Below, in pieces: positions 1,219-11,606 of a stretch of 20,577 nt of DNA (position 1 is the first letter of the stretch; every line of letters begins with the position of its first letter). The notes below the pieces were generated by a model, which was given only the letters and a program-made list of their open reading frames with translations, made no database searches and had not been told where the DNA came from. The stretch is from a virus. The position numbers were made by a program, and so were the translations under genes. Location: positions 1 to 20,577 of IMG/VR virus record IMGVR_UViG_3300049791_000122; one strand, 5' to 3'.

Positions 1219-2150
1219 TGGCTCGCTATCGCAAAGTCGACTCGCGCATCTGGAACGATGAGAAGTTCCGCTCGCTATCTGATGATGGCCAGCTCGTCTT
1301 TTTGTTCCTGCTGACTCACCCGCATCAGACGGCGCTTGGCGCCATGCGCGCAACAGTTTCGGGGCTCGCCGAAGAGAAGGGATGGCTTCCCGAAAGCCTT
1401 CCCGAAAGCCTTCCCGGAAGGTTCGACAAAGCCTTCACCGAAGTCTTACTGAGAGGGATGGTGAGGCACGACGCGAAGGCATCGTGCGTGTGGCTTCCAA
1501 ACTTTCTGAAGTACAACCGCCCGGAGTCCCCAAACGTCGTAAAGGCGTGGGCAAGTGCAGCGGATTTGATTCCTGAATGCGCACTGAAAATTGAATGCAT
1601 TCAATCCGCTAAAGCCTTCCTGAAAGGCTTCAAGGAAGCCTTTCGCAAAGCCTTTCGGGAAGCCTTCGGGGAAGGCTATACGAAAGACTATGCCTTATCC
1701 GGATCCGGAGCAGGAGCCGTAACAGGAGCAGGAGCCGATACTCAAGAGCAGCGCGCAAACCCGGCTGACGACGATCCATGTGGAAGCGAAGGAAAGCCCG
1801 CCGACCGTGACCCGACCAACCGCGAAGCGTTCGAGCGGCTGCGCGCTGGCTATCCGCTCGGGACCTACCCCCAGTCCGATTGGTTGCTCGGCGAACGCGA
1901 GGCATGCAAGCGCGTGGAGGAGGGCGAGGAAGGCTCCACCTGGGCCGACCTCGAGGCCGGCGTCCTGCGCTACCGCGACCAGCTCGTCGCACGCGGGAAG
2001 CTCGGCACCGAGTTCGTCTACTCGCCAAAGAATTTCTTCACCGTGCGCGAGAAACGCTGGCGCGACCCGTGGCCGCTACCGAGGACTACCGGCAAGCCGG
2101 AAGTCGAGCGCTGGCGCCCGCCACCCGAGCCCGAAGCAGGTACCGGCTGA
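1218..2150 (+). CDS. Phage replication initiator (lambda O-like) with embedded repeats
   Basis: A 310-residue protein. The N-terminal ~110 residues (MARYRKVDSRIWNDEKF..SDDGQLVFLFLLTHPH, then WLPNFLKYNRPESPN) match the winged-helix start of phage replisome organisers and O-like initiators, which bind origin repeats and recruit the helicase machinery. The middle is low-complexity: 4-residue repeats LPES (57-68) and KAFx/EAFx (132-159), then a Gly/Ala segment. The C-terminal third (about 200-295) is a charged helical domain with FVYSPKNFFTVREKRW. The repeats are mirrored in DNA as 12-bp iterons, like lambda O, whose gene contains ori. It starts with GTG overlapping the upstream TAG; GGGAG lies about 10 nt upstream. 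Its stop overlaps the next ATG by 1 nt (TGATG). Confidence 0.7.
   Translation: MARYRKVDSRIWNDEKFRSLSDDGQLVFLFLLTHPHQTALGAMRATVSGLAEEKGWLPESLPESLPGRFDKAFTEVLLRGMVRHDAKASCVWLPNFLKYNRPESPNVVKAWASAADLIPECALKIECIQSAKAFLKGFKEAFRKAFREAFGEGYTKDYALSGSGAGAVTGAGADTQEQRANPADDDPCGSEGKPADRDPTNREAFERLRAGYPLGTYPQSDWLLGEREACKRVEEGEEGSTWADLEAGVLRYRDQLVARGKLGTEFVYSPKNFFTVREKRWRDPWPLPRTTGKPEVERWRPPPEPEAGTG
1392..1451 (+). repeat. 12-bp iteron array 1 inside initiator gene
   Basis: Five successive 12-bp units run from 1392 to 1451. The first two are identical (GAAAGCCTTCCC), the third diverges (GGAAGGTTCGAC), the fourth is AAAGCCTTCACC and the fifth GAAGTCTTACTG. The core AAAGCCTTC occurs at 1393, 1405 and 1428. 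The repeats keep frame and encode LPES/LPGR/KAFT quartets. Confidence 0.75.
1590..1605. repeat. Perfect 16-bp palindrome beside iterons
   Basis: ATTGAATGCATTCAAT is a perfect 16-bp palindrome in the most AT-rich part of the initiator gene, 5 bp before the second iteron array. The half-site GAATGC also occurs at 1575-1580. Such sites at origins can bind initiator dimers or extrude a cruciform. Confidence 0.7.
1611..1694 (+). repeat. 12-bp iteron array 2 inside initiator gene
   Basis: Seven contiguous 12-bp units run from 1611 to 1694: AAAGCCTTCCTG, AAAGGCTTCAAG, GAAGCCTTTCGC, AAAGCCTTTCGG, GAAGCCTTCGGG, GAAGGCTATACG and AAAGACTATGCC. The core RAAGSCTTY is kept in the first five and decays in the last two. 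It shares the core with array 1 (1392-1451). The array encodes KAFL-KGFK-EAFR-KAFR-EAFG-EGYT-KDYA. Confidence 0.8.
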
Positions 2151-6203: not shown

Positions 6204-6752
6204 GTGAAACGCTCCCCATGGCTGGTGCTCATTGCGCTTGCGATTCTCGCGCCTGTGCTGGCGCGCGGCGCAGATGTCACGATCACGTGCGCACCGCCCA
6301 CGCAGTTCACTGACAACACGCCGATTCCGGCTACCGCGGTCATGACGTTCAAGCTGTATTCCGGCAGCACGGCACTCGATACGCAGCCAGCCTGCAAGTT
6401 TGTGCGTACGGGTCTTGCTCCGAACACGTACAACTACACCGCCACCGCAACGGTCGCGGGCGTGGAGAGCGATCAGAGCGCGCCTGCGCAGGTGGTGGTG
6501 CCGGCACCGAAGCCAAAGCCTCCCGGAACGCCGACAGCGACTATTGCAGTTATGGGACCGACTGCCTATTCGATGCTGAAATCAACCGACCAAGTAGTTC
6601 TAATTCCCGTTGGAACAATACCCATAGGCACCGCCTGTGATTCCAATCAGGGCGTAATCCGTGATGGGAAAGCATTCAATCTCGTGACGGCTGCAGCAGT
6701 TACTTGGACTGGCAGTGTGCGCAGCATTGCGGTAGTGGCAAGTTGCGGATGA
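6204..6752 (+). CDS. Predicted exported Ig/FN3-like protein
   Basis: A 182-residue protein starting at GTG with GGAG 7 nt upstream. The N-terminus has a Sec-type signal peptide: KR, then a hydrophobic core (WLVLIALAILAPVL), with cleavage likely after Gly22 or Ala23. The next ~85 residues form an Ig/FN3-like beta domain (TITCAPPTQFTDNTPIPA, TFKLYSGS, TGLAPNTYNYTATATVAG) ending in a Pro-rich linker (PAPKPKPPGTPT). A second segment (residues ~115-182) is encoded by visibly lower-GC DNA. The Ig part resembles the protein at 7362-7688. Exported virion-module proteins are unusual; a host-envelope role such as exclusion or lysis support is conceivable but unproven. Its stop overlaps the next ATG (ATGA). 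Confidence 0.65.
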   Translation: MKRSPWLVLIALAILAPVLARGADVTITCAPPTQFTDNTPIPATAVMTFKLYSGSTALDTQPACKFVRTGLAPNTYNYTATATVAGVESDQSAPAQVVVPAPKPKPPGTPTATIAVMGPTAYSMLKSTDQVVLIPVGTIPIGTACDSNQGVIRDGKAFNLVTAAAVTWTGSVRSIAVVASCG

Positions 6753-7348
6753 GTCATCAAATAACAGCTGGATTGAGATTCAGCAGGCTTGTAGTACTTA
6801 AGCAGCTGGCCTCGCGGGCGGGGAAGGCCCGATGGCTATGTGCCTGCGATTGTGGCAAGTCGGTATCGAGCACCACGGGAAATCTTACGAGCAGGAATAC
6901 TAGGTCCTGTGGATGTCTTCGCATTGATCGTACACGGCAAACGAAGACCACTCACGGGCACTGCCGGGTGCAAGATCGATCAAAGACCTATGACTGCTGG
7001 AATCAAATGCTGCAGCGGTGTACCAATCCGCGAAACAAGCGATGGAGCGACTACGGTGGCCGCGGCATAGATATCTGTCCTCAGTGGCGTGAGAGCTTCG
7101 AGAGCTTCCTCGCGGACATGCGCGAAAAGCCGCCTTCGCGCACTCTCGATAGAATTGATGTCGACGGCCATTACGAACCGCATAACTGCCGTTGGGCAAC
7201 TGCATCCGAGCAAGCCAGGAACACTCGTCGCAATCCGATATACAAGGCAAAACATGCATTTCACGGTTCCATGGTGGCGGATCAAGCTTTGCCGGCTCGC
7301 TCATCCGCTGCCACCGCGTCTCAGACGTATCCGTGTCAACAAATTTAA
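6749..7348 (+). CDS. HNH-like homing-type endonuclease with zinc ribbon
   Basis: A 199-residue protein starting in an ATGA overlap. It matches a common phage family: a start of the type GxRFSRLVVL, a zinc-binding CACDCG (31-36) with CGC (54-56), then WNQMLQRCTNPRNKRWSDYG (84-103), GRGI, and the HNH-like core LDRIDVDGHYEPHNCRWAT (133-151) followed by EQARNTRRN. Such proteins are free-standing, selfish HNH nucleases that cut phage DNA and spread by homing. After about residue 165 the sequence leaves the family pattern, which normally continues into another DNA-binding segment, so the C-terminus may be truncated or fused to pre-existing sequence. Its DNA is lower in GC than the neighbours, supporting acquisition. 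Confidence 0.7.
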   Translation: MSHQITAGLRFSRLVVLKQLASRAGKARWLCACDCGKSVSSTTGNLTSRNTRSCGCLRIDRTRQTKTTHGHCRVQDRSKTYDCWNQMLQRCTNPRNKRWSDYGGRGIDICPQWRESFESFLADMREKPPSRTLDRIDVDGHYEPHNCRWATASEQARNTRRNPIYKAKHAFHGSMVADQALPARSSAATASQTYPCQQI

Positions 7349-10128: not shown

Positions 10129-10494
10129 ATGAAGCACTCCGACGTTTACAAGATCCCCCGGCCGCACGAAGTCGAACTTCCGCGGCCGGGGGATCTTGCG
10201 GAAGTGCGGCGTTCGCATTGCAAAGCGAACGCGGAAGCCGGCCTGCTCGTGCAGATCATGGGCGAGCCGCACTGGTGTTATTGCAACTGTGCGGAATGTG
10301 GTCTTGCCATCACGGAATACTTCGTCGAAATCCATTGCGACATGCCCGAATGGCAGGGCACACCGGGCCCATGGTTCTACCCGATCAACTGGCTGAAGCG
10401 CATCGATCCGCGCGACCCCGTTCAATACGAGCGGATTCGCAAGTATCGGTTCGTCGTGCCCACTGAAGCGCAATTGATCGCCGCGAACAAATGA
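10129..10494 (+). CDS. Cys-rich hypothetical protein, possible zinc binding
   Basis: A 121-residue protein with a dense cysteine cluster CYCNCAEC (residues 50-57) and a later HC (69-70), a candidate metal site. It also has WYPINWLKR-like aromatic strands (PWFYPINWLKRIDPRDP). The ATG has no clear ribosome-binding site, and codons 7-24 form a 50-nt hairpin (10149-10198) that gives the near-palindromic peptide KIPRPHEVELPRPGDL. Expression may depend on translation from the preceding gene. Its stop overlaps the next gene (ATGA). The function is unknown. Confidence 0.6.
   Translation: MKHSDVYKIPRPHEVELPRPGDLAEVRRSHCKANAEAGLLVQIMGEPHWCYCNCAECGLAITEYFVEIHCDMPEWQGTPGPWFYPINWLKRIDPRDPVQYERIRKYRFVVPTEAQLIAANK
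10149..10198 (+). repeat. 50-nt near-perfect hairpin in coding sequence
   Basis: Arms CAAGATCCCCCGGCCGC (10149-10165) and its exact complement (10182-10198) form a 17-bp stem. Inside it, GAAGT (10168-10172) pairs with ACTTC (10176-10180) around a CGA triloop, leaving only 3 unpaired bases between the two stems. No T-tract follows, so it is not a standard terminator. Confidence 0.9.
10209..10232 (+). repeat. Second hairpin after the 50-nt stem-loop
   Basis: GCGTTCGC (10209-10216) and GCGAACGC (10225-10232) form a perfect 8-bp stem with an 8-nt loop, 10 nt downstream of the larger hairpin in the same gene. Confidence 0.6.
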
Positions 10495-11606
10495 GCGTTT
10501 TCCGTCCCTATCCGAATCAGCAGCCGCGCACGCACGGACTCGCGCCGATCCAGACTGCGGCCAGCGGCTTCTATCCGTTCGAAGGCTCGACACGGCAACA
10601 AATCAATCGCGGCATGGACATCCGGGCAGTTCTGCCCGCGCTGGGAATAGCGGCATTGCTCGCGCCTGCGCCAGTGTTCGTGCCGCCGGCTACGGCATCG
10701 AGTCCGGCTGCATACGTTCGCATGACAGCGGCGCCGCAACTGCCTGCGGCCGGGCCCGCATCGACCGATGACACAGTGCTGGTCGTCTGCGGAGAGCCGA
10801 CGCAATCCGTTGCGGCGTTCATCAGGGCGCCGAGCCCGCCCGCGCCACAATTTACTTCGGCAGTCGCGCCATTGGCTCAGGCTCCGGGGCCGGTCATTCC
10901 GCCCTCAACGCTCGCGCGCCCGGCGTCGATCACCTATCCGCCGATTCAGTTGCCTGAGAGCGAGATTGCTCCACTGCTGGCTCCGTCGGCGACGGTTGCC
11001 CCGCCCGCGACCGTGCAAGGCGCATTGGCACGCGCCGCGATGGTCCTGCCGTTGCAGATCTATTCGGCGGTTACGCCGCTAGCTCAATCATCGCCGCCGT
11101 ATATTCCAGCGGTGGTGCTCGCGCGCACACCGCCGGTCATCTATCCTGCGCAGATCATTGAATACGATGTGGCGCAGTTCCTGACCGGGGCGGCGGATGC
11201 GCCACCGCCCATAGCGCCTGGCTTACAGGCAGCATATATGCGATCGATCAGCCCGGCGCAGCAGCCCGAGAATGAAATCGCGCCGCTGCTTCCGCAGGGC
11301 ACGCCGCTCGTCTTTGCGACATTGATCCCGATTCCGACGAGAGAGACAAGAGCGCTGCAGATCGCGCTCACGCCCTATACGCCCGCGGCAACAGTGTTCA
11401 TCTATACGGCACCAACGCCACTTCTGGGACTCTATGCGCGGCTTGCCTTTGCATGGCCACGGATACCGGTGCATGCCGCGGCTTTGATTCCGCCAGCGCC
11501 CTTGGCGCCGCTTTCTGATGTACGCATTCGTTTCTCATCCGGTGGCCCGGAGAGACTCAGATTCAGCGCGCGAGGTTCAGAGCGCGCGAGGTTCAGAGCG
11601 CGATGA
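10491..11606 (+). CDS. Pro/Ala-rich protein with ~34-residue degenerate repeats
   Basis: A 371-residue protein starting in an ATGA overlap. Residues ~73-340 are built of about seven or eight imperfect units of 30-36 residues with the pattern ARxxxxxxPxQ, then SAVxPLAQ or ESEIAPLL, then a Pro-rich spacer. Examples are PQFTSAVAPLAQ (119-130) against LQIYSAVTPLAQ (188-199), and PESEIAPLL (155-163) against PENEIAPLL (259-267). The C-terminus is Arg-rich (RIRFSSGGPERLRFSARGSE). A hydrophobic stretch at 47-66 (VLPALGIAALLAPAPVFVPP) is too Pro-rich for a confident membrane helix. Such composition suggests an extended fibrous virion component. No family is recognised. Confidence 0.6.
   Translation: MSVFRPYPNQQPRTHGLAPIQTAASGFYPFEGSTRQQINRGMDIRAVLPALGIAALLAPAPVFVPPATASSPAAYVRMTAAPQLPAAGPASTDDTVLVVCGEPTQSVAAFIRAPSPPAPQFTSAVAPLAQAPGPVIPPSTLARPASITYPPIQLPESEIAPLLAPSATVAPPATVQGALARAAMVLPLQIYSAVTPLAQSSPPYIPAVVLARTPPVIYPAQIIEYDVAQFLTGAADAPPPIAPGLQAAYMRSISPAQQPENEIAPLLPQGTPLVFATLIPIPTRETRALQIALTPYTPAATVFIYTAPTPLLGLYARLAFAWPRIPVHAAALIPPAPLAPLSDVRIRFSSGGPERLRFSARGSERARFRAR
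11565..11602 (+). repeat. 16-bp tandem repeat at a gene end
   Basis: AGCGCGCGAGGTTCAG occurs at 11565-11580 and again at 11581-11596, and a third partial copy (AGCGCG) runs to the next start codon at 11603. Because 16 is not a multiple of 3, each copy is read in a new frame, giving the SARGSERARFRAR tail. Confidence 0.85.

Follow-up and report, generated by a model that had tools for sequence, protein, structure and literature searches.

Two arrays of a near-palindromic 9-bp word, RAAGSCTTY, set at a 12-bp pitch were found inside a phage replication initiator gene (1218-2150, + strand), and from sequence comparison both are very likely to be the initiator-binding iterons of a phage origin that lies within the gene of that initiator. 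The analysis concerned a 20,577-nt stretch of viral DNA (IMGVR_UViG_3300049791_000122, positions 1 to 20,577; hereafter the window) and its relatives in viral sequences. An iteron origin within an O-like initiator gene had been proposed in the initial annotation, and the comparative evidence strongly supports it as a putative origin. As in the general kind of iteron origin located in a phage initiator gene, multiple direct repeats lie within the initiator coding sequence and are conserved as DNA independently of the peptide.

All eight exact copies of RAAGSCTTY in the window, at 1393, 1405, 1428, 1611, 1623, 1635, 1647 and 1659, were located inside gene 1218-2150, whereas dinucleotide shuffles of the window contained 0.36 on average and never more than 2. 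Synonymous shuffling of the gene yielded 1.43 words on average and 6 at most, eight being reached in 0 of 5000 shuffles, and redrawing the codons from the usage of the other window genes gave a mean of 0.81 and never reached eight. Array 1 (1381-1448, + strand) contains exact units at 1393-1401, 1405-1413 and 1428-1436 and degenerate units at 1381 (1 mismatch), 1416 (3 mismatches) and 1440 (2 mismatches). A single 11-bp step, from 1405 to 1416, shifts the reading frame within the array, and the word is translated as LPES at first and as KAF past the step. Array 2 (1611-1691, + strand) consists of seven contiguous 12-bp units, five of them exact and the last two degenerate (1671, 1 mismatch; 1683, 2 mismatches), and is translated as K/E-A-F. 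The LPES of array 1 and the KAF/EAF of array 2 are one DNA word in two frames. The 12-bp core arrays reported initially thus proved real, array 1 being less regular than had been claimed. Since the pitch equals four codons, array 2 shows up as a 4-residue peptide repeat in the linker, a side effect of the spacing of the DNA word.

The tie between word and initiator gene was followed across phages. When 2.9 million viral contigs were searched blindly at the DNA level for three units in tandem, without use of the protein, 57 of the 65 stretches recovered lay within homologues of gene 1218-2150. The remaining eight were outside any detected initiator; at least one of them (L029) carries KPS-frame arrays and a 7-bp repeat tract and looks like the same arrangement with its initiator undetected, and others look unrelated. 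When a pattern for a second dialect with a related core was scanned, 64 of 80 stretches fell within initiator homologues, and an additional DNA scan with a GGG-centred pattern gave no new loci. The 129 non-redundant homologues contained 525 words versus 121 ± 9 under synonymous shuffling, and the 78 homologues found by protein alone, a set used to avoid selecting on the word itself, contained 239 versus 62.9 ± 6.6. Words in relatives were spaced by 12 bp in 385 cases and by 24 bp in 60, their number per initiator gene ranging from 0 to 11. The position of array 1 is conserved (about nt 174-210 of the gene), as is that of array 2 at mid-gene. The initiators of Citrobacter phage Chris1 and Actinobacillus phage pPE4 are homologues with one exact word each, indicating that the array is common and not universal. 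Named hosts of array-bearing phages include proteobacteria, actinobacteria and others.

The initiator gene begins with GTG and encodes 310 aa, comprising a winged-helix N-domain, a linker that holds array 2 and a variable C-terminal part. Residues 1-292 matched the PHROG DnaD-like helicase loader (phrog_1701) at E 1e-20, and this profile (DnaD-like helicase loader / replisome organiser) was matched by 74 of 75 relatives. The window initiator also matched PHROG replication initiation families, and 'replication initiation O-like' was matched by 29 of the 75 relatives. No Pfam or NCBIfam match was obtained for the window initiator, a PDB sequence search gave nothing meaningful, and Foldseek against the PDB returned no confident match. 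The predicted structure shows a confident winged-helix N-domain, with pLDDT mostly >95 across residues 10-155 except in the array-1 loop; array 1 encodes helix 68-78 plus the preceding loop, and array 2 encodes post-domain helices continuing into a disordered linker. The top structural matches include the N-domain of staphylococcal RepA (5kbj, a DNA complex, Z 7.2; 4pql, Z 7.0), on a par with CRP and LexA folds, so that the fold fits an iteron-binding initiator and is not diagnostic of one. Several viral fold matches carry the name 'Replisome organizer'. In the alignment of relatives (A1) the N-domain is conserved and the C-terminal parts are strongly divergent past the EQEQ tract, which suggests that initiators may exchange modules at the iteron/tract region.

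The next gene (2150-2635, + strand) encodes a phrog_10105-type protein in the slot taken by DnaB or loader genes in relatives. Across 174 relatives the next gene was DnaB in 59, loader-like (phrog_10105 type, so labelled from its position and by inference) in 27, and DnaC-like in 12, the DnaB identity being confirmed by Pfam on example relatives.

In an origin of this design, the winged-helix N-domain would bind the 9-bp RAAGSCTTY words, and the words of array 2, stacked at 12-bp pitch, would nucleate an O-some-like complex. As the pitch slightly exceeds one helical turn, bound protomers would wind gradually around the DNA. Array 1, about 175 bp upstream, might be engaged through looping or else be a cluster with an accessory or copy-control role. 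The neighbouring asymmetric short-repeat tract would be the place of strand opening or helicase loading, and the initiator C-part, together with the product of the downstream helicase/loader gene, would bring in DnaB. Few environmental phages have a known origin, and a 12-bp-pitched word would allow probable origins to be mapped in metagenomic data from sequence alone. Palindromic words and winged-helix proteins suit repressors too, and CRP and LexA stand among the top structural matches; the words could accordingly be operators for autoregulation, at which the initiator or another phage regulator blocks transcription, with no origin present. This is unlikely, since a single gene can hold as many as 11 sites, far inside its coding sequence, array 2 is conserved at mid-gene, a helicase/loader gene adjoins, and origins at exactly such a place have precedents in lambda O and pSK41 rep (PMC7466680, PMC5703833).

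Reading frames and codon usage bear on whether DNA or peptide is conserved. In relatives, array 2 was read in frame 0 (K/E-A-F; KAF in L004) in 66 cases, in frame 2 (K-P-S; L041, L053 and L066) in 57, in frame 1 in 5 and in mixed frames in 7; the frame-2 cases came mostly from the DNA scan, and the frames in the protein-found set alone were 206/25/8. Array 1 was in frame 0 (EAF) in 101 of 103 relatives. Within 12-bp-phased RAA-NNN-TTY units the triplet GCC was observed 386 times versus 54 expected, and the synonymous Ala codons were depleted (GCG 7 versus 26 expected, GCT 4 versus 23, GCA 3 versus 22). The tripeptide E/K-A/G-F was encoded by the word in 86 of 88 cases in array 1 and in 83 of 99 in the linker, whereas only 6 of 31 such tripeptides, taken as controls from the other ORFs at these loci, used the word. 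In diverged proteins, the spacer triplets between words vary freely while the core stays fixed. Judged by these counts, the DNA word is selected beyond its encoded protein, and array 2 is a DNA element riding in a frame-tolerant linker.

Frame switching marks array 2 as a DNA element; array 1, which keeps one frame and lies in the folded winged-helix domain, is probably constrained at both the DNA and the protein level. With the word placed inside a gene, frame switching parts DNA-level from protein-level selection unusually cleanly. It had been suggested that one repeat serves both as binding site and as functional protein segment. Relatives read the array 2 word in three frames, giving KAF, KPS or other peptides, and the window reads the word in two, so that this dual role is unsupported for array 2, array 1 being a qualified exception. 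The pattern that the initial annotation had set against its own proposal, a peptide repeat kept while the DNA repeat is lost through synonymous change, was seen in reverse: the word is kept while the peptide changes. If the repeat were a protein feature, with selection acting on the structure of amphipathic EAF/KAF helices and the DNA likeness secondary, the location of array 1 in a folded helix, its single frame (101 of 103 relatives) and the modelling of array 2 as helices in the window would fit; the three frames of array 2 in relatives, the failure of 5000 synonymous recodings to reach the window word count and the avoidance of synonymous Ala codons make this highly improbable. Recent tandem duplication or slippage leaving functionless repeats would suit the tandem units and the range of 0 to 11 words per gene but is scarcely credible, given that the same word stands at homologous positions of diverged proteins with core fixed and spacers variable, that second dialects hold the pitch and alter the core, and that the word is conserved across diverged relatives beyond codon expectation.

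Between the two arrays lies a perfect 16-bp palindrome, ATTGAATGCATTCAAT (1590-1605), which is perfect as originally claimed and is the only perfect one of at least 14 bp in the window. A perfect palindrome of at least 14 bp was present in that stretch in only 3 of 196 sequences; as the palindrome is not conserved, an origin role for it is unproven. The 18-bp direct repeat pair noted earlier (GGAGCAGGAGCC..., 1707-1742, + strand) was likewise present, 3' of array 2, its copies at 1707-1724 and 1725-1742 being identical at 15 of 18 positions. This short-repeat tract is the window's form of a CAGGAR tract. It is translated as GAGA in the window and as EQEQ in most relatives, and the GAGAG stretch is, at the sequence level, the counterpart of the (CAGGAR)n tract of relatives, which is mostly EQEQ, frame-shifted in others and present in 7-bp versions in some. 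The coding strand of the tract is A-rich and T-poor (A 0.36, T 0.12). A strongly AT-rich unwinding tract was not found, AT content peaking at 0.45-0.49 versus about 0.38 downstream, and GC skew gave no clear minimum at the arrays, a 20.6-kb window being uninformative in this respect and the record of 20,577 bases possibly a fragment.

The iterons occur in dialects that keep RAA...TTY and the 12-bp pitch and differ in the central triplet, which was GSC in 94 of 196 genes, GGG/CCC in 39 and CGG/CCG in 10; another 45 of the 196 relatives had fewer than 3 phased words, too few for a dialect to be assigned. The best dialect-separating column among all N-domain columns corresponds to Ser104 of the window initiator (codon 1527-1529, + strand; PESPN motif), a residue whose identity follows the iteron dialect. 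In protein-found loci, S104 went with 198 GSC words to 1 of another dialect, and N104 with 10 to 36. At 19 additional loci found with an N104-bearing peptide pattern, 8 GSC words were counted versus 25 in the other two dialects, and among 115 S/N-type loci the ratios of GSC to other dialects were 93:0 for S and 5:17 for N. When residues 103-104 were considered together, ES went with GSC at 77 of 77 loci, DN with GGG/CCC at 6 of 7 and AN with CGG/CCG at 8 of 10. Counted as independent evolutionary events on a poorly resolved tree, the link between residue 104 and dialect comes down to only 2-4 supported contrasts, in the expected direction or neutral, and is not significant. These associations raise the tentative idea, toward which we lean less than away, of an origin-specificity code in which the central triplet of RAA-SSS-TTY might be set mainly by initiator residues 103-104. 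If such a code were true, exchanging one residue plus the triplet would change which phages have compatible origins, and the association makes initiator-origin co-evolution and replicon compatibility directly testable.

Other repeats were observed in more distant initiator genes. A divergent homologue (L013, 3330-3520) carries another 12-bp array, with GAACGTTAC units translated as ERYGERY, possibly a further dialect. The 'RepA-like' genes of Mycobacterium phage Mask (L331, 2510-2680) and of an M. abscessus prophage (L333, 2530-2710) contain GGGACCCWCC units at 12-bp pitch and, after them, a GGTTCW tract, a layout as in the window with a different word. The initiator gene of the M. abscessus prophage prophiGD43A-3 (L337, 1900-2080) has an 11-bp-period repeat at the same place, so that the pitch is not always 12.

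Several features elsewhere in the window were also recorded. A small Cro/YdaS-like regulator is encoded at 176-418 (Pfam YdaS_toxin E 3e-14; PHROG transcriptional repressor), and downstream of this repressor gene the stretch 485-537 resembles an operator region, with clustered GATACAT-type words among which is a perfect palindrome, GATACATGTATC (502-513). Another perfect palindrome, TGACCGCGGTCA (848-859), lies right at a gene-start region. An exact 16-bp tandem repeat, AGCGCGCGAGGTTCAG (11565-11602, 2.4 copies), lies at the extreme end of ORF 10491-11606, the encoded tail of which is Arg-rich. A cysteine-rich, HNH-like free-standing ORF at 6704-7348, with no Pfam match at E 0.001, is possibly a homing-endonuclease-type insertion.

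The kind of origin proposed here is already known, because those of lambda/Stx O and pSK41 rep lie in-gene. Origins of lambda and Stx phages are situated mid-way along gene O and combine iterons with an AT-rich tract; for Stx phage P27, mutating the iterons silently destroys origin function, and additional iterons lengthen O by residues (PMC7466680). Like the window, these phages have dyad-like iterons mid-way in an initiator gene and a replication gene adjoining, and the reading frames of the four annotated iterons of lambda are 0, 2, 2 and 1. Lambda iterons are 18 bp long, spaced at 20-24 bp and form one cluster, whereas the window has a 9-bp core, a 12-bp pitch and two arrays, one inside DNA-binding-domain sequence; 18-bp lambda iterons with an adjoining AT-rich tract were not found in the window, where word and pitch are other. 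Homology to lambda O was not detected with an HMM of the window initiator family (E 0.13). In pSK41, rep boxes lie centrally in rep and are bound by the winged-helix N-domain, and the linker that they encode can be dispensed with (PMC5703833). RepA_N plasmids of this kind resemble the window in having repeats in the interdomain part of their own gene and a variable C-domain and differ in repeat word and pitch, the window system having been found in phage sequences. No Pfam match to RepA_N was obtained for the window protein, and the listed Pfam families of 75 relatives did not include RepA_N.

Among phages, TP901-1 rep, a replisome organiser annotated as a DnaD-like helicase loader, belongs to the same functional class in PHROGs; no homology to it was detected (E 0.019), and it is without a 12-bp array, its best short-repeat lag being 15 bp. 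Some distant relatives of the window initiator are annotated 'RepA-like replication initiator'. For mycobacteriophage RepA, repA is necessary and sufficient and the ori was not located (PMC7157519); those experiments were set aside as support, as Miko RepA (MN369748) looks unrelated and has no 12-bp array. A cultured relative is Thermobifida phage P1312, whose gene 087 (ALA06446.1, hypothetical protein) is an initiator homologue of a distant subtype with nine RAASSSTTY words of the GGG/CCC dialect in two arrays, both in the linker region. No earlier description of the word or of a 12-bp in-gene phage iteron was found in the literature, although subscription journals may hold one. Compared with the known systems, the new elements are the word itself, a 12-bp pitch that yields peptide repeats, two arrays of which one lies in DNA-binding-domain sequence, frame switching at the level of lineages, and dialects.
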